64,000 nt of DNA from Clostridia bacterium. GTDB taxonomy: Bacteria > Bacillota > Clostridia > UBA1381 > UBA9506. The stretch lies in contig JAFQAZ010000011.1 in assembly GCA_017416855.1 (NCBI GenBank), forward strand, positions 62,001 to 126,000. Direction: 5' to 3'. The notes under the pieces were generated by a model that saw nothing but the letters and a program-made list of their open reading frames with translations, searched no databases and had not been told where the DNA came from. The position numbers and the translations under genes are program-made. Positions 3,058 through 38,405 of this stretch are shown one piece after another (within the stretch, counting starts at the first letter, position 1; each line of letters starts with the position of its first letter).

Positions 3058-4413
3058 ATGGCAATCACAAACGAGTATTTAAAACGCGTGTTTGAACAAG
3101 TTCAGGCAAGAGATAAGAATGAGCCTGAATTTTTACAGACCGTTGAAGAGGTTTTTGAATCTATTGAACCGGTAGTGGCAATGCATCCGGAATACGAAGC
3201 AAGCGGTTTGATTGAACGCTTGGTTGAACCCGAGAGAATGATTTCTTTCCGTGTTTCCTGGGTGGATGATAACGGTAAGGTTCATTCCAATAGAGGTTTC
3301 CGTGTACAGTTTAACAGCGCAATTGGTCCTTATAAGGGCGGTCTTCGTTTCCATCCTTCTGTATATTCCGGTATTATGAAGTTCTTAGCTTTTGAGCAGA
3401 CCTTTAAAAACAGCTTAACCAGTCTGCCTATTGGCGGTGGTAAAGGTGGTTCTGACTTTGATCCCAGAGGCAAGAGCGATGCTGAAATTATGAGATTCTG
3501 TCAGGCATTTATGACAGAACTTTACAGACATATCGGTCCTGATGTAGACGTTCCTGCCGGTGATATTGGTGTTGGTGGCAGAGAAATCGGTTATCTCTAT
3601 GGTCAGTATAAGAGAATTAAGGGTTGCTGGGAGAATGGCGTATTAACCGGTAAGGGTATGGAATACGGCGGTTCTATCATTCGTCCCGAAGCAACCGGTT
3701 TTGGTGCTTCTTACTATGCAAATGAAGTGCTGAAGCATGAAGGCGATTCCTTTGCAGGCAAAACCGTTGCAGTTTCCGGTTTCGGTAATGTTGCTTGGGG
3801 CGTTTGCCAGAAGGTAACTGAACTGGGTGGTAAAGTTGTTACCATTTCCGGTCCTGATGGTTATGTATACGATCCCGATGGTGTTGGCACAAAAGAAAAA
3901 TGGGATTTCATGCTGGAAATGCGTGCTTCCGGTCGTGACCGCGCACAGGATTATGCAGAAAAGTTCGGTTGTGAATTTTTTGCAAAGCAGAAACCCTGGG
4001 GTGTTAAGGTTGACATTTGTATGCCTTGCGCAACTCAGAATGAAATTGGTATTGCTGAAGCAGAACAGATTATTGCAAACGGCACCAAATATTATATTGA
4101 AGTTGCTAATATGCCCACCACCAACGAAGCTATGGCGCTCATCAGAAGCAAAGGTCTTGTTGTTGGACCTTCTAAGGCTGTTAACGCTGGCGGTGTAGCA
4201 GTTTCTGCTCTTGAAATGTCTCAGAACTCCATGAGATATGCCTGGAGCGCTGAAGAAGTTGATGCTAAGCTGAAGAATATTATGATTAATATACATAAGG
4301 CTTCTGTTGAGGCTGCTGAAGAATATGGTCTGGGTTACGATCTGGTTGCCGGTGCTAACATTGCAGGCTTTAAAAAGGTTGCAAATGCTATGATGGCACA
4401 GGGTATTGTATAA
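3058..4413 (+). CDS. gdhA: NADP-type glutamate dehydrogenase
   Basis: 451 residues, the usual length of the hexameric small-subunit GDH family, which interconverts 2-oxoglutarate plus ammonia and glutamate. The catalytic-lysine motif PIGGGKGGSDFDPRGKS lies near residue 120. DVDVPAGDIGVGGREIG follows, and the Rossmann motif GFGNVAWG near 241 binds the cofactor. AAGGAG at 3044-3049 is spaced for the ATG at 3058 rather than the GTG at 3049. It is monocistronic, with its own promoter and terminator. With the glutamine synthetase at 20947 and aspartase at 23468, it makes the window rich in ammonia metabolism. Confidence 0.97.
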   Translation: MAITNEYLKRVFEQVQARDKNEPEFLQTVEEVFESIEPVVAMHPEYEASGLIERLVEPERMISFRVSWVDDNGKVHSNRGFRVQFNSAIGPYKGGLRFHPSVYSGIMKFLAFEQTFKNSLTSLPIGGGKGGSDFDPRGKSDAEIMRFCQAFMTELYRHIGPDVDVPAGDIGVGGREIGYLYGQYKRIKGCWENGVLTGKGMEYGGSIIRPEATGFGASYYANEVLKHEGDSFAGKTVAVSGFGNVAWGVCQKVTELGGKVVTISGPDGYVYDPDGVGTKEKWDFMLEMRASGRDRAQDYAEKFGCEFFAKQKPWGVKVDICMPCATQNEIGIAEAEQIIANGTKYYIEVANMPTTNEAMALIRSKGLVVGPSKAVNAGGVAVSALEMSQNSMRYAWSAEEVDAKLKNIMINIHKASVEAAEEYGLGYDLVAGANIAGFKKVANAMMAQGIV

Positions 4414-7647: not shown

Positions 7648-8095
7648 AAAAAGCCTTCCCCTTGAGGGGAAGGGGGACCGCTTGCGGTGGATGAGGTGGA
7701 GATGAATAATACAAACAATTCGAAATTAACAGGTAATGCAAAATCATTAAGAAAGAATATGACCAAAGAAGAAAGACATCTTTGGTATGATTTCTTAAAA
7801 ACCTTACCTATAACTGTAAACAGACAAAAGGTTATAGGTAACTACATTGTTGACTTCTATATTGCCACCGCAAAACTTGTTATTGAACTAGATGGTTCAC
7901 AACATTATGAAGATAAGGGCGTAGAGAATGATACAAAAAGAGATGCGTTTCTAAATGATTTAGGAATTACAGTGTTAAGATATTCCAATCTTGATGTTAA
8001 TCAAAGATTCGAGAGTGTTTGTGAGGATATACTAAATAATCTTGACACCTCATCAGTCACTTCGTGACAGCTTCCCCTCAAGGGGAAGCCTTTAG
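7648..8095 (+). mobile_element. Hairpin-ended repeat element carrying a DUF559 nuclease gene
   Basis: Left end: AAAAAAGCCT, then hairpin CCTTCCCCTTGAGGGGAAGG (7654-7673), hairpin ACCGCTTGCGGT (7677-7688), then GGATGAGGTGG. Right end, mirrored: CACCTCATC, hairpin GTCACTTCGTGAC (8056-8068), hairpin CTTCCCCTCAAGGGGAAG (8071-8088), then CCTTTA. The element has two nested hairpins at each end in opposite order. The gene between uses GAGGTGGAG of the left end as its ribosome site, and its last codons lie in the right end. The gene-less element at 15139 has the same design. Confidence 0.65.
7702..8067 (+). CDS. DUF559 (Vsr-like) endonuclease-domain protein
   Basis: 121 residues. Starts MNNTNNSKLTGNAKSLRKNM, continues TKEERHLWYDFLK and a strand-rich core with NYIVDFYIATAKLVIELDG and QHYE. 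The aspartate and glutamate in these strands correspond to the catalytic PD-(D/E)XK-like site of the DUF559/Vsr fold. Such proteins are small DNA endonuclease-like enzymes with no established role. An in-frame GTG at 7687 exists, but the GAGGTGGAG ribosome site fits 7702. The gene fills the inside of a hairpin-ended repeat, suggesting a link between nuclease and repeat spread; this is inference. Confidence 0.85.
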   Translation: MNNTNNSKLTGNAKSLRKNMTKEERHLWYDFLKTLPITVNRQKVIGNYIVDFYIATAKLVIELDGSQHYEDKGVENDTKRDAFLNDLGITVLRYSNLDVNQRFESVCEDILNNLDTSSVTS

Positions 8096-25263: not shown

Positions 25264-25293
25264 AATAGCATAGAATATATTAGGGTGATGAAA

Positions 25294-25704
25294 ATGAGTA
25301 TAAATGAAATTTTAAGTAATATCGGAATGACAAAATACCGATTGGCAAAACTCTCCGGTATTCCCCATGCGACACTTAGTGAATTGTGCAGCGGTAAAAC
25401 AAACATTGAAAAGTGTTCCGGAGAAACATTATATAAAATCGCAAAAGTATTAAATGTGTCTATGGAGAGCCTGCTTGATGACAGAATGACAACTCTTGCA
25501 AGAGAGCGTTCCTACGAGTATGGTCTTCCTTCATATCTACAACATGATTTGGATGTATACAAAGATGCCGTATCAAAGAATTCCACTTTGATAGATTGCT
25601 ATTGGGGCGAACTTTACGGAAGCATCAATATGGCAGAAATCAGCGATCGACTAATAACGCCGGAGCATGCGGATTATTTAAGGCAGAAATATTTATGGAG
25701 GTAA
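25294..25704 (+). CDS. HTH (XRE/HipB-like) regulator paired with a HipA-like kinase
   Basis: 136 residues. An XRE helix-turn-helix occupies residues 2-62: GMTKYRLAKLSGIPHATLSE, then SGETLYKIAKVLNVSMESLL. A C-terminal region (about 70-136) has no recognised domain. AGGGTGA fits ATG 25294; GTG 25285 and ATG 25288 are also open. The kinase gene begins 4 bp after its stop. It should act as the antitoxin and autorepressor of a HipBA-type module, which would also favour retention of the element in vegetative cells. Confidence 0.8.
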   Translation: MSINEILSNIGMTKYRLAKLSGIPHATLSELCSGKTNIEKCSGETLYKIAKVLNVSMESLLDDRMTTLARERSYEYGLPSYLQHDLDVYKDAVSKNSTLIDCYWGELYGSINMAEISDRLITPEHADYLRQKYLWR

Positions 25705-25708
25705 CATT

Positions 25709-26596
25709 ATGGCAAACAGAATTGATTTTACAAACTGTAAGCGAATTATAGGCAGAGCATATAATGGTGCAAACGGAAAGAAAATTGCAGTAGAATATGA
25801 AGGTGAAAGATATATGCTTAAGTTTCCTCCATCAGGAAATAAAAAGCCAACAGAATTATCATATACCAACAGTTCAATTAGCGAGCATATAGCAAGCAGT
25901 ATATTTAATATGATAGGCATAAAAGCACAAAAAACAAAACTTGGAACCTTTACTGTAAATGGCAAGGTGAAAATTGTTTGTGCATGCAAGGATTTTACTG
26001 ATAAAAATAAAAACTTATATGATTTTTGTTCTATAAAAAATACCGTTATTGACTCTGAACATAATGGTACAGGAACAGAGCTTTCCGATGTTCTCGAAAC
26101 CATAGAAAAGCAACAATTTGTAAGTCCCGAAGAATTGCTTAAGTATTTCTGGAATGTGTTTGTAGTAGATGCCTTACTTGGCAATTTCGACAGGCACAAT
26201 GGTAACTGGGGATTTTTGTTCGATGATGAAACTCAAACATCTGAGATTGCACCTGTTTTTGATTGCGGTAGTTGTTTGCTTCCACAGGCAGACGAAAAGA
26301 TAATGAGAACTATTTTAGAAAACGAAGATGAACTAAATGCCCGTATTTTCCAATTCCCTACATCCGCAATTAAACTGAATGACAAAAAAATCAACTACTA
26401 TGATTTCATTTCTTCAATGGGAAACGAGGATTGCAACAAAGCAATTTTAAGAATTGTGCCCAATATTGATATTGACCTCATAAATGCATTTATTGATAAT
26501 ATTATTTATATATCCGATTTGCAAAAGGAATTTTATAAGACATACATTACAGCAAGATACGAGAAGATTTTACTGCCGACCTATAGAAAATTATGA
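25709..26596 (+). CDS. HipA-like (CtkA-type) serine/threonine kinase toxin
   Basis: 295 residues, shorter than classical HipA (about 440) and close to the CtkA-like short form. Catalytic-loop motif is ALLGNFDRHNGNWGFLF (near residue 152) and the metal-binding DFG-like motif is PVFDCGSCLL (near 186). The N-terminal lobe contains KIAVEYEGERYMLKFPP with the ATP-lysine. HipA toxins phosphorylate targets such as tRNA synthetases and arrest growth. TGGAGGTAAC upstream gives a strong start. Coupled to the HTH gene as a two-gene toxin-antitoxin module. Confidence 0.82.
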   Translation: MANRIDFTNCKRIIGRAYNGANGKKIAVEYEGERYMLKFPPSGNKKPTELSYTNSSISEHIASSIFNMIGIKAQKTKLGTFTVNGKVKIVCACKDFTDKNKNLYDFCSIKNTVIDSEHNGTGTELSDVLETIEKQQFVSPEELLKYFWNVFVVDALLGNFDRHNGNWGFLFDDETQTSEIAPVFDCGSCLLPQADEKIMRTILENEDELNARIFQFPTSAIKLNDKKINYYDFISSMGNEDCNKAILRIVPNIDIDLINAFIDNIIYISDLQKEFYKTYITARYEKILLPTYRKL

Positions 26597-28515: not shown

Positions 28516-29949
28516 ATGGAAGTAATAACAAAAAAAGTATTTATTTCATATTCTTGGGCCGTTCAAGAAAAAGTTATAGAACTAGCTGAACGACTTATTG
28601 CCAATGGAGTAGATGTCATACTCGATGTATATGATTTGGGCGATGGCGATGACAAATATGTTTTTATGGAGCAATCGGTAAACAATCCGGAAATTGACCA
28701 TGTATTAATTATTTGCGATAAAACCTATACGGAGAAGGCAAACAATCGTACAGGTGGTGTTGGGGATGAAACTGTAATAATCACACCGGAACTTTATGGT
28801 AATGTGAAACAGGACAAATTTATTCCAATAATTTTTGAAAAAGACGAAGACGGGAAACCATACTGTCCACATTATATTAAAAGTCGTATATACATTGATT
28901 TAACAGATGAAGCCACATATGAGTCAGAATATGAAAAACTTCTTAGGGATATTTATAAAAAACCATTGTACAAAAAACCAGCTTTAGGGAAAAAACCAGA
29001 ATGGTTAGAAAATGACACAATTGATCTTTCTCCCATTCGCGATGTGGTTAAACAAGTTCGAGGTTTTTCGAGAAACAATTATACAAAGGCAGATTTTTTA
29101 CTGAGAAGGGCATTAGATGAATTTATAATAGCAGGCAAGCAATATGTTTTAACCAAGGATGGCGACTCAGGCGAAGAATTACTTTCTTTGATTGAACAAT
29201 GTAAAACATATAGAGATGTATTTGTGGATTTTTGTGAAGCACTAATTTATAGCGGCTTACCGCTAAGTGATACATTAAGTCATTTTTTTGAAAGATTGTA
29301 TAATGAAATTCATGAGGCTGATGAGCGCAAATCGTATAGTAGTTATGATTATGAATTACAAGATTATATAATTTGGGAACTGTTTATATGCATGATTGCA
29401 ACATTGATCCATTATGAAAAATTTGAGGAAATACATGATATACTAATACACCCATACTTCATACGCAGAGATTTCTTTAATCCTGATGTAGAGGCTTTTA
29501 ATTACTTTAAATTTAGACCTGTATTTAGAAGAATTGAAAACGAGTGTAAACCAAAGAGTAAAGAGCCAAACCGTTATACCATGGCTGGTGATATTATAAT
29601 TAAGCGTGAGAAAAAGCCGATTCTAACAAAGGAATCCATTTCTAATGCAGACCTTGTTTTATATCAGCTTGGTGTATTGTTGCCTGTTTCACATTTAAAC
29701 GGATATAATTACTGGTTTCCTCTTACTTATGTTTATCATCAATCCGTTCAAGTTATGTGGCAAAAACTAAAGTCTAAAACATATTGTTTGAAAATTGCGC
29801 CTCTTTTTGGTGCTACTACAATTGATGAACTAAAAAACATAGTTCAAAATTCTGTGGTAGATGAGCGTATGAAATATAACTATGCGTGGGAATGCGCAAA
29901 TTCAATATTAAGCAGTATTGATTTTGAGGACATAGCAACATTAAATTAA
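28516..29949 (+). CDS. SEFIR/TIR-superfamily domain protein, probable anti-phage effector
   Basis: 477 residues. Residues 5-150 form a SEFIR domain: KKVFISYSWAVQEKVIELAE at the start, VLIICDKTYTEKA in the middle, and a conserved FIPIIFE strand. The C-terminal 300 residues are helical and unassigned, probably a sensor or oligomerisation part. Bacterial SEFIR proteins act in abortive anti-phage defence, depleting NAD+ on infection; this role is inferred for this protein. GGAGT upstream gives the start. Its neighbours inside the element are HipA-like and unknown genes, as in a defence cluster. Confidence 0.8.
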   Translation: MEVITKKVFISYSWAVQEKVIELAERLIANGVDVILDVYDLGDGDDKYVFMEQSVNNPEIDHVLIICDKTYTEKANNRTGGVGDETVIITPELYGNVKQDKFIPIIFEKDEDGKPYCPHYIKSRIYIDLTDEATYESEYEKLLRDIYKKPLYKKPALGKKPEWLENDTIDLSPIRDVVKQVRGFSRNNYTKADFLLRRALDEFIIAGKQYVLTKDGDSGEELLSLIEQCKTYRDVFVDFCEALIYSGLPLSDTLSHFFERLYNEIHEADERKSYSSYDYELQDYIIWELFICMIATLIHYEKFEEIHDILIHPYFIRRDFFNPDVEAFNYFKFRPVFRRIENECKPKSKEPNRYTMAGDIIIKREKKPILTKESISNADLVLYQLGVLLPVSHLNGYNYWFPLTYVYHQSVQVMWQKLKSKTYCLKIAPLFGATTIDELKNIVQNSVVDERMKYNYAWECANSILSSIDFEDIATLN

Positions 29950-30357: not shown

Positions 30358-31197
30358 ATGAAGAAAATTACTAATGAATTAATACAGAAGTTCAAAGAAT
30401 ACTTGATTGACGAGGAAAAATCAGTAGCGACATTAGATAAATACATCAGGGATGTAAACACATTTATGGCATGGTGCGAAAATAAAGAATTATGCAAGAG
30501 CCTTGTACTTGAATATAAGCAAGAGATAATAGAAAAATATGCTCCAGCGAGTGTAAATTCAATTATATCTTCCCTTAACAGTTTCTTCGCATACAACGAA
30601 TGGTATGACTTAAAGGTTAAGGCACTTAAAATTCAAAAGCAGATTTTTGCTAATAATGACAAAGAGCTTACAAAGGCAGAATATGAAAGATTGCTCAAGG
30701 CCGCCAAGAGTAAGAAAAATGAAAGATTGTATTATTTAATGCAGACAATTTGTTCATCAGGCTTGAGAGTATCTGAATTACGTTTTATAACAACCGATGC
30801 TGTAAGATGTGGGCAAGCTACAATAAACTGCAAAGGTAAAATGAGAATTGTTATATTACCCAAGCAGCTTTGCAAAATGCTGAAAGACTATATAAAAGAA
30901 AATAATATAAAAAGCGGCTCCGTGTTCGTTAGCAAAAACGGAAAACCACTTGACAGATCAAATATATGGTCTGATATGAAAAAACTTTGTGAAATTGCTG
31001 GGATATCAAAAGACAAAGTATTCCCACACAATCTCCGCCACTTGTTCGCAAGAACCTACTATTCCCTTCAAAAAGATGTAGTAAGACTTGCTGATATCCT
31101 TGGTCATTCAAATGTAAATACTACAAGAATTTATACAATGGAAAGTGGCATTGTGCATCGTCAGCAAATACAAAAATTAGGATTGCTACGGTGCTAA
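30358..31197 (+). CDS. Tyrosine recombinase, probable invertase of the adjacent promoter segment
   Basis: 279 residues. Core-binding domain (about 1-95) and catalytic domain with R in SSGLRVSEL, K in CKGKMRIVI, H-x-x-R in FPHNLRHLFA, H in LGHSNVNTTR and the nucleophile in RIYTMESG. This is the XerC/D-like build used by small invertases. The stop codon is 8 bp before a 25-bp inverted repeat that, with its partner, flanks 205 bp holding a promoter. That position argues that it flips the segment rather than moves the 18-kb element. Confidence 0.9.
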   Translation: MKKITNELIQKFKEYLIDEEKSVATLDKYIRDVNTFMAWCENKELCKSLVLEYKQEIIEKYAPASVNSIISSLNSFFAYNEWYDLKVKALKIQKQIFANNDKELTKAEYERLLKAAKSKKNERLYYLMQTICSSGLRVSELRFITTDAVRCGQATINCKGKMRIVILPKQLCKMLKDYIKENNIKSGSVFVSKNGKPLDRSNIWSDMKKLCEIAGISKDKVFPHNLRHLFARTYYSLQKDVVRLADILGHSNVNTTRIYTMESGIVHRQQIQKLGLLRC

Positions 31198-31205
31198 AAT
31201 AAAAA

Positions 31206-31460
31206 TACCACATAACTGAAATTATGTGGTAAGTTGATACAAAACTACAGATAAAGTATACCACAAAACCCAGATAAAGTCAATGATTTGAGAAAAAATA
31301 CAATTTAATTCTACATATTTTCTAAAAATAGACAACATTAAGAGACCAATTCGCAGAATAACACTAATTGGTCTGAAAATTGTTGTTGCAAAAACCACCC
31401 ATTTTTCTTGCAACTTATATTTATTAAAATTTTTCACCACATAATTTCAGTTATGTGGTA
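31206..31460. other. Invertible promoter switch (25-bp perfect inverted repeats)
   Basis: Left repeat 31206-31230 and right repeat 31436-31460 are exact reverse complements over 25 bp. Each is itself a near-palindrome (ACCACATAA...TTATGTGGT). The 205 bp between contains one strong promoter, on the minus strand at present, and an inner inverted repeat AGACCAATT/AATTGGTCT (31343-31374). Flipping would move the promoter to about 31383-31411 on the plus strand, reading into the gene at 31483. A tyrosine recombinase gene abuts the left repeat. Confidence 0.88.
31255..31283 (-). promoter_or_regulatory. Promoter inside the invertible segment, currently pointing left (OFF)
   Basis: On the minus strand: TTGACT (31278-31283), 17 bp, TATACT (31255-31260), preceded by TTGTGG as in the repeated element promoters. 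In this orientation it transcribes toward, and antisense to, the tyrosine recombinase gene. Confidence 0.8.
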
Positions 31461-31482: not shown

Positions 31483-32187
31483 ATGTTAAAAGACAAAATC
31501 AAAGGAACTATTATCGGTGTGGTAATTGGAGCAACATTAACAGGCGGAGTAGCAATGGCAGCAAACACAACAACTTTATATGATGTAGTAGCAAATGGTA
31601 TCAAAATTGTTGTTGATGGTAAAAAGTTAAACCCAACGGACGCAAAGGGTAATAAGGTGGAACCGATGATTTATAACGGAACTACATATCTGCCGGTTCG
31701 TGCAGTTGCTGATGCTTTAGGAAAGTCTGTCTATTGGGACGGGCCTAATTATACGGTTTATCTTGGTGAAATGGATGGCAAACTGGAGTATCCGACTACG
31801 TATATGACCGATTTAAAAAGTATCGGTGAAAGTCCTTGGACAGATAAATCATCGATTGACAATTATGGCAACCGATATACAAATGTTATTAACAATGATA
31901 ATTATGATCATTGTAATTTTGAATATCTTTTGGATATGAAGTATAGCCGTTTTAAGGCAACACTGTTTGTACCAACCACCTCTATTGATGGTACGGGTTA
32001 TTTAGAAATTATTGCTGACGGGAAAACGATTTATACTTCACCGGAAATGACCAAAACGTCTCGTCCGGTAAATATTGATGTTAATGTCACCGGTTGTAAT
32101 AATATAAAAATTAATTTTAGTTGTTGGCATATGGGCTATTTAGACCAAATCCCAATGTGTCTTGCTGATGCCGGTTTCTATCAATAA
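31483..32187 (+). CDS. Secreted protein with copper-amine-oxidase N-like domain
   Basis: 234 residues. Signal peptide (about 1-27, ending VAMAAN), then a copper amine oxidase N-terminal-like domain (KIVVDGKKLNPTD, NGTTYLPVRAVADALG). From about 105 a beta-rich domain follows that resembles NPCBM-type carbohydrate-binding modules (YSRFKATLFVPTTSIDGTGY). It should be surface-located. ATGGAGGTAA upstream gives the start. It is the first gene downstream of the invertible promoter, and no other promoter is obvious in the 22 bp between the right repeat and the start. Confidence 0.82.
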   Translation: MLKDKIKGTIIGVVIGATLTGGVAMAANTTTLYDVVANGIKIVVDGKKLNPTDAKGNKVEPMIYNGTTYLPVRAVADALGKSVYWDGPNYTVYLGEMDGKLEYPTTYMTDLKSIGESPWTDKSSIDNYGNRYTNVINNDNYDHCNFEYLLDMKYSRFKATLFVPTTSIDGTGYLEIIADGKTIYTSPEMTKTSRPVNIDVNVTGCNNIKINFSCWHMGYLDQIPMCLADAGFYQ

Positions 32188-32204
32188 TAAAAAGGAGAAA
32201 AATT

Positions 32205-32279
32205 ATGTTTTGTAAAAAATGTGGCAAACAAATTTCTGACGATTCAGTTTTTTGTTCTTATTGTGGAGAAAAAGAGTAA
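32205..32279 (+). CDS. 24-residue zinc-ribbon micro-protein
   Basis: M-F-C-K-K-C-G-K-Q then C-S-Y-C-G: a complete C-x2-C...C-x2-C ribbon and nothing else. AAAGGAG 7 bp before ATG 32205 supports translation. It may be a true micro-protein or the leftover head of a longer zinc-ribbon membrane protein like the one at 35277. Lies in the envelope operon. Confidence 0.5.
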   Translation: MFCKKCGKQISDDSVFCSYCGEKE

Positions 32280-32341
32280 GAAAATTACTGTTATATGAAT
32301 CCGAAAATAAAATGATTGGGGCGTAATAAGGGGGATTTAAA

Positions 32342-33301
32342 ATGAAAAGAAAGGTATTATCAATTTTAATGATGTTGTATGTAACATCATTATGTGGGTG
32401 TAGCAATGCAGGCAACACACCAAATAACGATGATTTTCTAAACGATTATAAACAATATATTGGAAGTTCTGACATGGAATTCGAACAAGTTGAAGTTATA
32501 AAAGAGCAATTATTTAAAGAAAATAAAAAATTCAATGTGGAGGTTAAGTTTACAGGAAAAGATGATTATGCAAACTATGAAAAGATTACAACATTAACAT
32601 ATAACTACTATGATGATGTTGGTTGGACATTAGAAGACGAAACCACGCATTCCCATGAAACAAAATGTTTTAAGGGTCGAAGCATCACAGAATTAGAGGA
32701 CGATATACAGAAAAATTATTCTAACTATGTTGACGCCTGCAAGGATATGCGAATAAATGAAGTCGGCGGTATTTCCAATAATAATGAGCAAATCATTACC
32801 GTCAGTTGTTTACTGAAAGATGGAAAGGTAATTGGAACATATGATAATACAACACTATTATTTGCATATGAAAATGGAAAATGGAACTTTATTGAGTCTA
32901 GGTTATCTAACGCGAGCAATTACTTTTTAGATATTGTAGGAACAAAGTGGCATAGCGAGATGAATTCGTCAGGGAAGAGAGAAGGAGAAACCATAGAGAT
33001 AATTTCTGTTTCTGACGATAGTAAAACAATTATCTTCAAATACGGGGAAATTAGCTGTACTGCTAATTTTGCCGGGGAATATAACGATTTCAAAACTAGC
33101 CATGTTAAATATATCCCAAAGGAAAAAATATATCTGGGTGAAGCGAAAGTAATTAGCAGCAAATATAAAGTTTACCTACAAGAAATTCGATTTGCTACAT
33201 TTGCTGGGGCAGGAAATGATTCTATAATTATAGAGGGAAGAATGGATGGGTGGAATGGTTATGACCCGACTAGAACTTATTTTTACAATATAATTAATTA
33301 A
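32342..33301 (+). CDS. Lipoprotein, unknown
   Basis: 319 residues. Signal with a lipobox (VTSLCGCSNAG; lipidated Cys near 20). The mature part alternates strands, with KFNVEVKFTGKDDYANYEKI early on. No known family. It should be fixed to the outer face of the membrane. Part of the same-strand run 31483-37450. Confidence 0.7.
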   Translation: MKRKVLSILMMLYVTSLCGCSNAGNTPNNDDFLNDYKQYIGSSDMEFEQVEVIKEQLFKENKKFNVEVKFTGKDDYANYEKITTLTYNYYDDVGWTLEDETTHSHETKCFKGRSITELEDDIQKNYSNYVDACKDMRINEVGGISNNNEQIITVSCLLKDGKVIGTYDNTTLLFAYENGKWNFIESRLSNASNYFLDIVGTKWHSEMNSSGKREGETIEIISVSDDSKTIIFKYGEISCTANFAGEYNDFKTSHVKYIPKEKIYLGEAKVISSKYKVYLQEIRFATFAGAGNDSIIIEGRMDGWNGYDPTRTYFYNIIN

Positions 33302-33350
33302 CCAATATATGAGAAATGAGATTTTAATTAAACAATAGAAAGGAAAAAAC

Positions 33351-35252
33351 ATGAAAAGAATAATTAGTTTAATTTTAGTTGTTATAATGGCTTTGTGTTT
33401 ATGCACGGTATCTGTCAGCGCTGCAACAGGACAGGATATTGTAAATGATTTGAATGACAATTATGTGGGCAAATATCCCTATGTATTGAATACGCATGGA
33501 CCAAAAACTTTTGATTGCTCCGGCTTGGTATATTATGTATACAAACAGCACGGTGTAACCCTGCCGTATGTTACAAGTGCGGATTGGACCAAATACGGAA
33601 CTGTAATAACGGACAGAAGTCAATTAAAAAGCGGTGATATCCTGTTGTTTGGTTCATCTAAGACAAGTTTAAACCATATAGGAATTTATGACGCAAATGG
33701 TGGATATATTATTCAAGCATTAAACAGTCGATATGGCATTATAAGGAAGCCAACTCTTTCAGAATGGGTATCGAGTTCCAGTTGGAACAGCAACGGCAGT
33801 AATCAGTTTCAGTATGCAATTCGTGTATTTGGCGGAGAAAGTTCCAATAATAGTAATTCATCCAACTCTGGAAACACTTCCTCTTCTTCGTCTTCAAAGC
33901 CTTGTATATCAAATCCCAATCGTACACTTAGATGGAAAGAGTTAAATAGTACATATGATGTAACCACAAAGGAATTACAGGAATGTCTTAATTACATCAT
34001 GAAAGCCGGACTTAAGGTAGATGGAAAATATGGTATTGCTACACATGATGTAGTAAAAGAATTTCAAGGACAATATGGTTTAAAGGTAGATGGTGATGCG
34101 GGTCCACAAACATTAAAGAAGGTAAATGAAGTTTTGTCCAGCATGGGAGGGGGTCATACTCATAGTTTCACCGGAACTTGGCACGAAGCAGTGCATCCAC
34201 ATAGAGAATACAGGAAATGTAGCAGTTGCGGAGAAACAGAACTAACTGGTAATACCGTATCCGATGCTAATTGTGCTCAATGTACAACACCGGGAAAGCC
34301 TAGCCTACTGAATATGAAACAGGAGTATGTTGAGGGTACAGAAATCAAGTTTACATGGAATCCCACAGTTAACACAACCCACTATAATTTATACATAAGC
34401 AAGCAGGATGCAAGTGGCGAGTATAAATATTATGAAAATGTTTTTTATGCAGAATCAGGCATGACACGCAACTTTGATGCTGGAAAATATAAAGTTTTCC
34501 TCCAACCTACAAACTCAAACGCATGGACAGATGACAAATCAACATGGCGTTACACAAATAGCGATATGTATTATTTTGAAGTAACCGAAAAGCATACGCA
34601 CGAGTATGCAGAGAAGTATGATAAAAAACATCCTCACAAAGTTTACAAAGAGTGTGATTGTGGTGATATTCAGTATTCTGACGAAACTAAAAAAGTTAAA
34701 AACTGTGAAGAATGTTATCCGCACGAACATGATTATGTTGCTAAATACGAAACAACACATCCGCATGAAAAGTACTGGATTTGTGATTGTGGAGAAATGA
34801 AGGAAACTGGTGAGACAAAAAAGATAAGCGGATGCTCAGAATGTTATCCAATCGTAGAAAAAAAGACGTTAAAACTACAAATAGGAATTCCTAATATGTA
34901 TGTGGACGGGCAAATTCAAGAAATTGATCCCGGCAGGGGAACGGCACCTGTTATTCAAAATGAAAGAACACTGCTTCCTATTCGTATGGTAATGGAAACT
35001 TTTGGGGCTTATGTTCTTTGGAATGAAATTGAAAATAAAGTGACTATTTATGCAGGCGATACAACAATGGAATTTTGGATTAATAACACTAGAGCCACAG
35101 TAGATGGCAAAATATTCACTATGGATGTTGCCCCAACTATTATTAATGAAAGAACCTTTATGCCCCTAAGGTTTATTGCGGAAAATATGGGGCTCAACGT
35201 TGGCTGGAATGGTATTAATCAAACTGTTACCATTGAAGGAGAAATTTCATAA
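33351..35252 (+). CDS. Multidomain secreted cell-wall hydrolase (NlpC/P60)
   Basis: 633 residues in order: signal peptide (1-24); NlpC/P60 peptidase (about 27-165) with catalytic Cys56 in DCSGLVYY and His109 in LNHIGIYD; Ser/Asn-rich linker; peptidoglycan-binding domain (about 195-262, GLKVDGKYGIATHDVVKEFQ). Then come three copies of a Cys/His unit with the pattern H-P-H-x-x-Y/W-x-x-C-x-C-G, the second and third closing in C-x-x-C-Y-P; a fibronectin-like insert lies between units 1 and 2. A C-terminal copper amine oxidase N-like domain (about 520-633) ends it. It should cut peptidoglycan stem peptides outside the cell. Confidence 0.88.
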   Translation: MKRIISLILVVIMALCLCTVSVSAATGQDIVNDLNDNYVGKYPYVLNTHGPKTFDCSGLVYYVYKQHGVTLPYVTSADWTKYGTVITDRSQLKSGDILLFGSSKTSLNHIGIYDANGGYIIQALNSRYGIIRKPTLSEWVSSSSWNSNGSNQFQYAIRVFGGESSNNSNSSNSGNTSSSSSSKPCISNPNRTLRWKELNSTYDVTTKELQECLNYIMKAGLKVDGKYGIATHDVVKEFQGQYGLKVDGDAGPQTLKKVNEVLSSMGGGHTHSFTGTWHEAVHPHREYRKCSSCGETELTGNTVSDANCAQCTTPGKPSLLNMKQEYVEGTEIKFTWNPTVNTTHYNLYISKQDASGEYKYYENVFYAESGMTRNFDAGKYKVFLQPTNSNAWTDDKSTWRYTNSDMYYFEVTEKHTHEYAEKYDKKHPHKVYKECDCGDIQYSDETKKVKNCEECYPHEHDYVAKYETTHPHEKYWICDCGEMKETGETKKISGCSECYPIVEKKTLKLQIGIPNMYVDGQIQEIDPGRGTAPVIQNERTLLPIRMVMETFGAYVLWNEIENKVTIYAGDTTMEFWINNTRATVDGKIFTMDVAPTIINERTFMPLRFIAENMGLNVGWNGINQTVTIEGEIS

Positions 35253-35276
35253 TTAATAAAAGGGGGGGATGATATT

Positions 35277-37211
35277 ATGCAATGTAATCATTGCGGAGAA
35301 AGAATTAAAACTGGTGCAAGCTACTGTGCAAAATGTGGTGAAGAAGTTACTTTATCAAAAGATAATGTTCCTAAATATAAAGCTAAAATGATTACTTATA
35401 TTCTTCTTTGTTCTGTTGTTTTCATTATTATATTGCTTGTTGGAATAATTTGGAATTGGGCATCAACTCGTTATACAGGGAGCATGGCTGTTGAGGAGCA
35501 CCCTATCGTTTATGTAAAAAACAACGAGCATTTAATGCTAAAACATCAAAAACAGGAGGAAGCCTGGGAAATTACTAATACTTTTGGTGCGTGTATTGAT
35601 GAAGATGGGTATGAGTATGAGAAAATAGAAGTATCCAGAGACGGACGAATTTTGTTTTTCGCTGATAATATTTCAACAACGTCGCGTGATGGCGGATATT
35701 TACATTATGATATCAAATATGATTTATATTATAGATATACAAATCAAAAGGAATTGAAAGATAAAAACGCAGAAAAACAAGGGTATTTTATTTCTGCCAA
35801 TGTTTTAAATTTTGATGCAGCACAAGACGGAAGTTTTGTCGTATATCTAAGAAATGACGAATTGTGTCTTTCGCAGTTAAATGATGAAATAATTATAGCA
35901 GATGATGTTTCTGCTTTCATGCTTAGTGATGACGAAAAGATAGTTACATTTAATAAAAAAGGAGGAGGGCTTTACATATACCGACTTGGAGCAGGAGTTG
36001 AGGCTGAAACTCTCTATAGTGGCAACGACACGGTTGCTCTTTATTCGGTATATATGGAAAATGATAAAATCATATATAAAACCGGCACATATCAGGATGG
36101 ATATAAAGTATTTATAAAAGAAAGCACCGAGGAGCCCGTTCAGGTTACAGAAGACATTTATGATATGTATGTAAACAATGGCATAATATATGTAACAAAG
36201 CAGAATGAACACAAGCTAGGGTTTGACGATTTATTCGCAAACGATTTAGGTAATATTTCACAGCCTACAAAACCTAATATATCTAATTATGAAAAACCTT
36301 CAAAAAATGGTTCGTATATGCTTACTGACTATGATGCCTATGATGATGCTATGGATTTATATTATAAAAAAAATACCGCATATGAAATTAAAGATTATTA
36401 TGATAAAAATCCGTTGACAGAGAATACATACGCACTGTATAAAATAGAGAATGGCGAAATGCAAAAAATAGATGACGACTTATCGTTCGGCGAATTTTAT
36501 TCGGGGGACTATGGCGGGAATACTCCAATTATATTTCATAAAAAGTTAGATAGTGGTTCAAAAGTGAAATTAAGTGATGTAGGTAGCTTAAATGCTGCAA
36601 AAAATAAAGTAAAAGAAAGCCAACAAGAAAAAAACAGTATGGCATATGATGTATTCTTATTAACTCCGAGTGGTAAATATATATGTTTGGGAAACAGTAA
36701 CGATGGCGCCGGAGGCGGTCTAATTTCATTGGACGAAAAGTATTTTTATAGAAACGAACATATACTCAGTGACGGACGAGGTATCGTTGTAAAGTACGAA
36801 ATTACAAATGATGGTTTGGTTAATGCACAGGAAATTTATCAAGGCGCACAAAGCATGTATTTTTACAAAGATTATCTTATCATTAATTCAAGTGATGCTA
36901 CCGTTTTATATGATGGACAAAGATGCCACCAATTAAAAAATGAGGGAGATTATACCAGTAATTGGTATGATGATGGTGTGTATTATTACTTTAGTGAATA
37001 TGATAGAAATGATCAGTCAGGAATACTTATGAAGTTTCAAAATGGCGAAAAAATTCAAATAGATACAGACGTCCATACAATGATGTTACATGGCACAGAT
37101 GTTTATTATTTAAAACATTATAACACAAACAGACAAAAAGGAGATCTGTATCAATATAAAAATGGTATTTCAACCAAAATCGATTCGGATGTCAGTTGGT
37201 TTGGCTATTAA
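35277..37211 (+). CDS. Zinc-ribbon membrane protein with large extracellular repeat domain
   Basis: 644 residues. Cytosolic zinc ribbon (CNHCGERIKTGASYCAKCGE, residues 3-22), one membrane segment (about 40-62), then about 580 residues of outside domain with repeated strand motifs of the YDGQ / YLKHYN kind, suggesting a beta-propeller-like fold. Similar ribbon-plus-TM-plus-repeat proteins are common in Clostridia without known function. Strong AGGGGGGGA ribosome site. Same operon as the NlpC/P60 protein. Confidence 0.75.
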   Translation: MQCNHCGERIKTGASYCAKCGEEVTLSKDNVPKYKAKMITYILLCSVVFIIILLVGIIWNWASTRYTGSMAVEEHPIVYVKNNEHLMLKHQKQEEAWEITNTFGACIDEDGYEYEKIEVSRDGRILFFADNISTTSRDGGYLHYDIKYDLYYRYTNQKELKDKNAEKQGYFISANVLNFDAAQDGSFVVYLRNDELCLSQLNDEIIIADDVSAFMLSDDEKIVTFNKKGGGLYIYRLGAGVEAETLYSGNDTVALYSVYMENDKIIYKTGTYQDGYKVFIKESTEEPVQVTEDIYDMYVNNGIIYVTKQNEHKLGFDDLFANDLGNISQPTKPNISNYEKPSKNGSYMLTDYDAYDDAMDLYYKKNTAYEIKDYYDKNPLTENTYALYKIENGEMQKIDDDLSFGEFYSGDYGGNTPIIFHKKLDSGSKVKLSDVGSLNAAKNKVKESQQEKNSMAYDVFLLTPSGKYICLGNSNDGAGGGLISLDEKYFYRNEHILSDGRGIVVKYEITNDGLVNAQEIYQGAQSMYFYKDYLIINSSDATVLYDGQRCHQLKNEGDYTSNWYDDGVYYYFSEYDRNDQSGILMKFQNGEKIQIDTDVHTMMLHGTDVYYLKHYNTNRQKGDLYQYKNGISTKIDSDVSWFGY

Positions 37212-37243
37212 TATTTTAATTACTGAACAGAAAGGAAAAAGAT

Positions 37244-37450
37244 ATGAAAAAAATTAATTTATGTTTATTACTGATTGTTTTTTTGTGTATGCTTTGTGGT
37301 TGTGGTAAATCATATACTTGCTATGATTGCGGAAAAAGTACCACTAAAGCCTATTACAATATGGATGCAAAAATAGAAAAAGTAATGTGTGAGGAATGTG
37401 CAAGGAAGTATTGGATGCCGATGCCTTACCAAAATTATAGAGTAAATTAG
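37244..37450 (+). CDS. Small Cys-rich lipoprotein
   Basis: 68 residues. Lipobox LCGC at about 17-20, then two C-x2-C pairs (CYDCGK and CEEC), a surface-exposed zinc-ribbon-like unit. GAAAGGAAAAAG upstream. It is the last gene of the run governed by the switch, before promoter P2. Unknown function. Confidence 0.65.
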   Translation: MKKINLCLLLIVFLCMLCGCGKSYTCYDCGKSTTKAYYNMDAKIEKVMCEECARKYWMPMPYQNYRVN

Positions 37451-37529: not shown

Positions 37530-37814
37530 ATGAAAGTGCTTGAAGAATTCTGGTATGGCAATATTAACCCGATGGAAAGACCATTTCAAAGCCAAAGAAA
37601 GTTTGACAAAGTATTCAGGGTGTTGACTAAAAATGAAGAAGAATTGCTCAAGAATCTAAATGAGCAAGAAAAAGAATTGTTTGACAAAGTCAAAACCTGT
37701 TATGACGAAATGATACAAATAACAGAATGTCAAACCTTTATAAAAGGATTTAAATTAGGAGCAAGGTTCTTTATAGAATGCTTTGAAAATGATACCGACA
37801 TATTCGATGAATGA
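37530..37814 (+). CDS. DUF6809-like small protein
   Basis: 94 residues, N-terminus LEEFWYGNINPMERPF typical of a small helical family (DUF6809, recognised with moderate certainty) common on clostridial mobile elements. The remainder is helical: KNEEELLKNLNEQEKELFDK. Function unknown. AAGGAGGTGA ribosome site; expressed from P2. Confidence 0.65.
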   Translation: MKVLEEFWYGNINPMERPFQSQRKFDKVFRVLTKNEEELLKNLNEQEKELFDKVKTCYDEMIQITECQTFIKGFKLGARFFIECFENDTDIFDE

Positions 37815-37862
37815 AATTCGAGTATGTCGGTATTTTTATACCCAAAATGAAAGGATGAGTTT

Positions 37863-38405
37863 ATGAAAAAGAAAATAATATGTACGTCACTTGCTATAAC
37901 AATGTTGCTGACACAAACAGCATCGGCAGCACCTTGGCAATGGCATAGGGATGAACTGATATACGATAGTGAAATCAGGTTCTTTGGAAATGTCACCTTG
38001 CAATTCGCATCGGACGGCGGAAGCTTTATCAGGCCAAAAACGAAAAGATACGGCGAGAGCATCAGCCTTGAAAGTTATGTCCCCACAAAATACGGATACA
38101 TCTTCAAAGGATGGTTCACAGACCCAAGAACAAAGCAGAATCAGGTAACAACATTCAAATTCACAAAGCCTGATGTACTTTATGCAAAATGGGAAAAGAA
38201 TCCAGAAGCACCCATAAATCCAAAGGACGAAATTATGGCAATAGACACCTGCTACCTCACAGATGAGGAAACTAAAATACGAAATGAAATCATAGAAGAA
38301 AAAAACAAAGCCTACATAGACGGTTTCGGCTATGTAGCCCCGAGTAAAACAAAAACTATCATAGTAGGCTCGGATGGCGATATAAATAAAATGGTAGGTT
38401 ATTAA
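37863..38405 (+). CDS. Secreted protein with InlB B-repeat
   Basis: 180 residues. Signal peptide (about 1-23, ASAAP), then one Listeria-Bacteroides (InlB B-type) repeat, about 45-113, with YGYIFKGWFTDPRTKQNQVT and a closing VLYAKWEK. The tail is short and lacks a sortase motif. Such repeats mediate surface contacts. It follows the DUF6809-like gene on the same strand. Confidence 0.8.
   Translation: MKKKIICTSLAITMLLTQTASAAPWQWHRDELIYDSEIRFFGNVTLQFASDGGSFIRPKTKRYGESISLESYVPTKYGYIFKGWFTDPRTKQNQVTTFKFTKPDVLYAKWEKNPEAPINPKDEIMAIDTCYLTDEETKIRNEIIEEKNKAYIDGFGYVAPSKTKTIIVGSDGDINKMVGY

Follow-up and report, generated by a model that had tools for sequence, protein, structure and literature searches.

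A predicted phase-variable promoter inverter upstream of an envelope operon in a Clostridia genome, and the family of switches around it

A 64-kb stretch of the Clostridia bacterium assembly GCA_017416855.1 (contig JAFQAZ010000011.1, positions 62,001–126,000; hereafter the window) carries a tyrosine recombinase gene, a pair of inverted repeats and an envelope operon in succession, which raises the question of whether the recombinase flips the DNA between the repeats and thereby makes the operon phase-variable. A first-pass annotation had proposed that the segment is an invertible promoter served by its own recombinase and present in the OFF orientation. The features on which the analysis draws are as follows (window coordinates, strand, basis of assignment).

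30358–31197, plus: tyrosine recombinase, 279 aa, predicted invertase of the switch (Pfam Phage_integrase, 2.6e-31)
31196–31231, minus: predicted arm-formed intrinsic terminator, left-arm hairpin followed by TTTTTATTTT (~ -13 kcal/mol, conserved U-tract)
31206–31230, plus: left arm, ACCACATAA-CTGAAA-TTATGTGGT at 31207–31230, spacer at 31216–31221 (sequence)
31255–31283, minus: invertible promoter TTGACT-17-TATACT with extended TG, facing the recombinase, i.e. OFF (sequence)
31343–31374, no strand assigned: internal palindrome AGACCAAT-N16-ATTGGTCT (family conservation, score 20 or more in 48/78)
31436–31460, minus: right arm, ACCACATAA-TTTCAG-TTATGTGGT, spacer at 31445–31450 (sequence)
31483–32187, plus: first controlled gene, exported protein of 234 aa with Cu_amine_oxidN1 and NPCBM domains (Pfam)
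32342–33301, plus: probable lipoprotein, 319 aa, LCGC lipobox, no Pfam match (translation)
33351–35252, plus: NlpC/P60 cell-wall hydrolase with PG_binding_1 and Cu_amine_oxidN1 domains (Pfam)
35277–37211, plus: zinc-ribbon protein, 644 aa, with a hydrophobic membrane-type stretch (weak Pfam match; stretch by eye)
37244–37450, plus: small probable lipoprotein, 68 aa (short gap after the preceding gene)
37530–38405, plus: possible operon extension, a DUF6809 protein and an exported List_Bact_rpt protein (no terminator between)

The two arms are 25 nt long, 100% complementary and separated by a 205-nt gap, as the annotation had described, so that the invertible unit including the arms spans 255 bases (31206–31460). 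They form the only exact inverted repeat of at least 20 bp within 600 bp in the whole window, and the longest inverted repeats in five block-shuffled windows reached only 12–13 bp, which rules out a chance origin. Another exact inverted repeat, of 18 bp with arms ~400 bp apart, lies at 7655–8088. Each arm is built from 9-bp palindromic halves around a 6-bp spacer that is its sole asymmetric part, and the right spacer is the reverse complement of the left one; an in-silico flip of the segment leaves both arms unchanged. Sites at which tyrosine recombinases cross over are expected to consist of palindromic halves around a short asymmetric spacer. The whole 2.37-Mb genome contains exactly four copies of the core ACATAA-N6-TTATGT, arranged as two pairs, and no match to a reversed control pattern. 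The arm palindromes with their asymmetric spacer and the four core sites of the genome had escaped the first-pass annotation, as had the arm terminator and the inner palindrome considered below.

The stop codon of the recombinase gene ends at 31197, and the 8-bp distance to the left arm given earlier is thus exact. The protein has a SAM-like domain at its N-terminus (Pfam), and its Phage_integrase domain together with the catalytic R, K, H-x-x-R, H and Y places it in the Xer-like tyrosine recombinase family; an alignment of 19 members shows no variation at the six expected catalytic residues (R137, K161, H224, R227, H250 and Y259). Its relatives by sequence in the PDB are XerA and XerD, and it scores below the NCBI cut-offs for Xer equivalogs. 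A search of viral contigs found no relatives, and those on phages and plasmids are mostly distant, the best being a Monoglobus replicon (54%) with the same layout as the window switch. The closest relative, locus L126, has 84% DNA identity, and the homology extends precisely to the inner edge of the left arm (31231) and no further; at the sequence level, the recombinase-plus-arm unit is kept between the two loci while the segment and the target differ. The surroundings upstream of the switch are defence-island-like, with a bSEFIR anti-phage defence protein immediately upstream (28516–29949; PADLOC 9e-98) and an HTH and HipA-like pair, a candidate PDC-M03A, at 25285–26596.

Of 199 related genomes, 70 encoded homologues of the recombinase at E ≤ 1e-20, often more than one each, and 110 such switches, representing 78 non-redundant clusters, were found in Clostridia. 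Nearly all of the fetched loci share the order recombinase, arm, promoter segment, arm and target, and the core site comes after nearly every related recombinase. The same layout was seen again in a named genome collection, in animal-gut MAGs and isolates such as Anaerotignum lactatifermentans, a collection that overlaps in part with the set of related genomes. The spacers were initially compared on pairs that had been picked by matching spacers; when the comparison was repeated without this pre-selection, which rules out selection bias as the source of the match, the spacers were inverted copies of each other in 82 of the 84 distinct loci with two or more perfect core sites, and only one end had been fetched for the remaining two. 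Across the loci there are 46 different spacers, varied between loci and matched within each. Such freedom of the spacer to vary suggests that many independent inverters can operate without cross-reaction. Additional tandem copies of the arm, in the same orientation and 33–45 bp apart, were observed at one segment end in L013, L014, L015, L018, L024, L027, L031 and L033, and at both ends in L017.

The promoter reported earlier, TTGACT-17-TATACT on the minus strand, was recovered with its -35 element at 31283–31278 and its -10 element at 31260–31255, and once the segment is flipped in silico, 72 bp lie between the end of the -10 element and the downstream ATG at 31483, in agreement with the ~70 bp estimated before. 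At a score cut-off of 11 or more, a strong sigma-70-type promoter was present near one arm in 69 of the 78 non-redundant segments but in only 6 of 780 shuffled segments. The promoter points to the recombinase (OFF) in 61 of the 78 and to the target (ON) in 17, and both orientations occur inside four clusters of closely similar segments. The window locus itself appears only in the OFF orientation, in one clean assembly. In the longer segments of L063 and L069 (358–393 bp), outward-facing promoters are located near both arms, and flipping there might swap promoters instead of switching the target off.

Draft assemblies also carry traces that flipping would leave. In G055, which has a single detected recombinase gene, contigs C2 and C42 begin with an identical 77 bp, consisting of the promoter end of the segment and the arms, and then diverge, one continuing into the recombinase flank and the other into the target flank. 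This pattern is what a mixed population would give in a de Bruijn assembler, with the qualification that G055 is an incomplete draft bin in which a second, unassembled switch is possible. In G049, contigs C5 and C7 share an overlap of 77 bp, and their break coincides with the inner edge of the left arm. Of 59 loci, 9 have a contig end within 360 bp after the gene and none has one before it, compared with ~1 expected (Fisher p = 0.0014). The genome of the window contains a second switch (L097, contig C7, 2740–2987), whose target encodes an exported metallo-beta-lactamase-fold protein and whose target flank is identical on both sides for 118 bp to the contig end. This arrangement fits the presence of both orientations but could also reflect a genuine inverted duplication of the target. 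The 3-kb contig of L097 lacks a recombinase gene, and since the search of this genome detected a single recombinase of the family, the enzyme encoded in the window may act on this second switch in trans. Copy numbers taken from draft genome bins can mislead.

Since the family layout, the matching spacers, the presence of both orientations among relatives and the contigs in which the same segment end is linked to either flank all agree, a fim-like inverter is well supported, and with it the proposal of the first-pass annotation. We consider it highly probable that a site-specific promoter inverter makes the envelope operon at 31483 phase-variable and that the operon is at present OFF; that the exact segment in the window flips is something we infer from its sister switches, and on/off expression of 31483–37450 would follow from the arrangement of these elements. 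One claim was not supported, namely that in the OFF state the promoter produces antisense RNA to the invertase gene. Read on the minus strand, the left arm folds into a hairpin of 11 bp, after which comes the U-tract TTTTTATTTT, and when at least six T in the ten bases beyond the arm are required, such a tract is found beyond the left arm in 57 of 78 clusters but beyond the right arm in only 7 of 76. Because the U-tract is conserved at the left arm and not at the right, the arm looks like a terminator toward the recombinase but not toward the target. The OFF transcript therefore probably ends at the left arm, and a long antisense RNA to the invertase is unlikely.

The segment contains an additional conserved element, a palindrome of the form AGACCAAT-N15-20-ATTGGTCT (read in the ON direction) that lies between the far arm and the promoter in most segments. 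Palindromes scoring 20 or more were present in 48 of the 78 clusters compared with 0 of 78 shuffled segments, with stem letters ~85–100% conserved. They are common with recombinases at least 60% identical to that of the window and rare below this value. The exact motif occurs in 13 of the 199 related genomes; both copies in the genome of the window lie inside switches, as do most of the remaining ones, with G128 as the exception. The distances from the far arm to the palindrome fall at 49–52, 59–61, 70–72, 80–83 and 89–93, those from the palindrome to the -35 element at about 40, 50, 59, 71 and 91, and those from the -10 element to the near arm at about 14, 24, 35 and 46, forming 46 distinct combinations. 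All three follow a 10.5-bp lattice, with best periods of 10.3–10.9 bp. The phasing holds for each distance even with repeated values reduced to one (20,000 random draws, p below 5e-5), a treatment that, like the clustering, reduces relatedness without removing it. Shared descent was rejected as the source of the signal, which survives on the 78 clusters and on unique distance values. Because the spacings of the palindrome follow the DNA helical repeat, they suggest a DNA-level nucleoprotein complex common to the family. The searchable literature yielded no account of the palindrome, of its phasing or of the arm terminator.

The same elements can be read in other ways. The segment could act mainly through termination, as in cwpV, with an upstream promoter such as that of the recombinase driving the operon and read-through being blocked in one orientation. 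The recombinase and the operon are indeed co-directional, the palindrome can form an RNA hairpin (~ -16 kcal/mol in the window) and T-rich stretches lie 14–19 nt beyond it, stronger in the ON direction; yet the palindrome has such stretches to either side, 69 of the 78 segments carry a strong promoter directed at an arm, and the cwpV promoter sits outside its segment (PMC2784873), so that we regard this explanation as improbable. Even less credence is given to a dead switch, an old inverted repeat now locked OFF. The single clean orientation at the window locus is what such a relic would display, but decay would add mismatches to the arms, which here are perfect over 25 bp and accompanied by an intact recombinase and a good promoter, and signs of flipping are present at sister switches.

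For the palindrome, we see about an even chance that it is an enhancer-like element, phase-locked to the recombination sites and the promoter, at which a host protein builds an invertasome-like complex that couples recombination, and perhaps transcription, to the state of the cell. It might alternatively be no protein site but an intrinsic terminator working in both directions, which would shield the operon from transcription running on from the recombinase gene, a role compatible with its placement between two co-directional genes in either orientation, with T-tracts on both sides and with stem pairing that includes some two-sided changes (A-T to G-C in 4, C-G to G-C in 1). Loops of 15–20 nt are large for a terminator, however, the stem letters are themselves conserved at ~85–100%, and a 10.5-bp lattice to the arms and the promoter is unexpected for an RNA element, which together leave this reading possible but on the unlikely side. 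Class I activators work at helically phased positions, and the phased distance from the palindrome to the -35 element (50/59/71/91) would equally suit a transcription-factor operator upstream of the promoter with no part in recombination. Transcription control alone does not require that the distances from far arm to palindrome and from promoter to near arm also be phased, and an operator of this kind seems to us doubtful, slightly more so than the terminator.

The operon that the inverter would control begins with a start codon at 31483, 22 bp after the right arm, preceded by a GGAGG ribosome site. It may run on to 38405: no plus-strand terminator-like site was found between 37211 and 38405. 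At L072, a gene at 3850–4392 downstream of a different switch is a close homologue of the List_Bact_rpt gene in this possible extension, ~89% identical in DNA over 413 bp to window positions 37986–38398, which hints at gene exchange between switch-controlled operons. The first-gene targets across the family include List_Bact_rpt, cohesin, dockerin, SLH and BspA-type LRR proteins, TetR regulators and SLOG proteins, and on the basis of these target types the switches probably diversify surface and fibre-binding functions. Switches at L061, L065, L072 and L098 adjoin genes for small SLOG-type proteins with a CCFxGHR/K motif, unexpected company for surface proteins. At L042, L084 and L086, the switch precedes helicase genes, behind which come genes for aminotransferases and sugar transferases that resemble surface polysaccharide loci, and at L040 it lies upstream of an Hsp70-like gene and its downstream operon.

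In the mechanism that we propose, the recombinase would bind the two palindromic arms, exchange strands across the 6-bp spacers and flip the 205-bp segment; the internal palindrome is probably occupied by an architectural or regulatory protein that aids assembly of the synaptic complex. In the ON state, the promoter would transcribe through the right arm, which lacks a U-tract, into the operon from a predicted start ~65 nt upstream of the ATG. In the OFF state, the promoter faces the recombinase, and its transcript would be expected to stop at the left-arm hairpin and U-tract. Some expression of the operon in the OFF state could come from read-through of the recombinase gene, and weak internal promoters within the operon are possible. 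From the phased palindrome one can predict an accessory factor, which lends itself to a direct search. The analysis moreover provides a sequence-level definition of these switches, comprising the site core, the spacer rule, the promoter position, the palindrome and the arm terminator, with which phase-variable surface genes can be located in gut Clostridia, including the many that are uncultured.

Among known systems, the E. coli fim switch (FimB/FimE, fimA promoter) is similar in having a promoter in a short inverted segment, an adjacent tyrosine recombinase gene and a surface-structure target (fim features from PMC2784873 and general knowledge). In the window, as in its relatives, the promoter likewise lies inside the inverted-repeat segment upstream of the target, with the recombinase adjacent (8 bp in the window). 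The window switch differs from fim in having one recombinase rather than two, long palindromic arms with a 6-bp spacer, a conserved internal palindrome in a helical lattice and an arm-formed terminator on the recombinase side only. The cwpV/RecV system of C. difficile shares the Clostridia background, an XerC/D-like tyrosine recombinase, a cell-wall protein target and a similar segment length (195 bp). However, inversion at cwpV, which has imperfect 21-bp repeats, is proposed to switch a terminator, its promoter lies outside the segment and recV is not adjacent (PMC2784873), whereas the window promoter is inside its segment and the recombinase next to it; the earlier citation of cwpV as an example of a promoter inverter was therefore mistaken. 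The Hin/Fis invertasome resembles the predicted complex in that an additional DNA element near the sites, whose helical phasing matters, organises inversion (PMC3798978). Hin is a serine recombinase and its recombinational enhancer binds Fis (PMC3798978), while the window enzyme is of the tyrosine type and the conserved phased palindrome has only a predicted partner and a predicted role in inversion. PsrA of streptococci, also a tyrosine invertase from Bacillota, is ~30% identical to the window recombinase at the protein level and is known for in-vitro DNA inversions in S. pneumoniae (PMC7096588).

Inverton group 139, paired with invertase group 35 in a 2025 paper (PMC11892184), has 32 of its 33 members in Clostridia; a tyrosine-type recombinase lies no more than 5 kb from nearly every one, and read counts in cultures showed shifts of orientation. 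The internal palindrome, the phasing and the arm terminator are not described in the passages of its main text consulted. In this group, the arms are 26 bp long and 205 bp apart in Clostridium sp. D5, with 227 bp between the arms in Intestinimonas (PMC11892184). The window switch shares with the group a Clostridia host, an adjacent tyrosine-type recombinase and a similar arm length and spacing, and group 139 is probably the same family, as judged by taxon, recombinase, arm length and gap.
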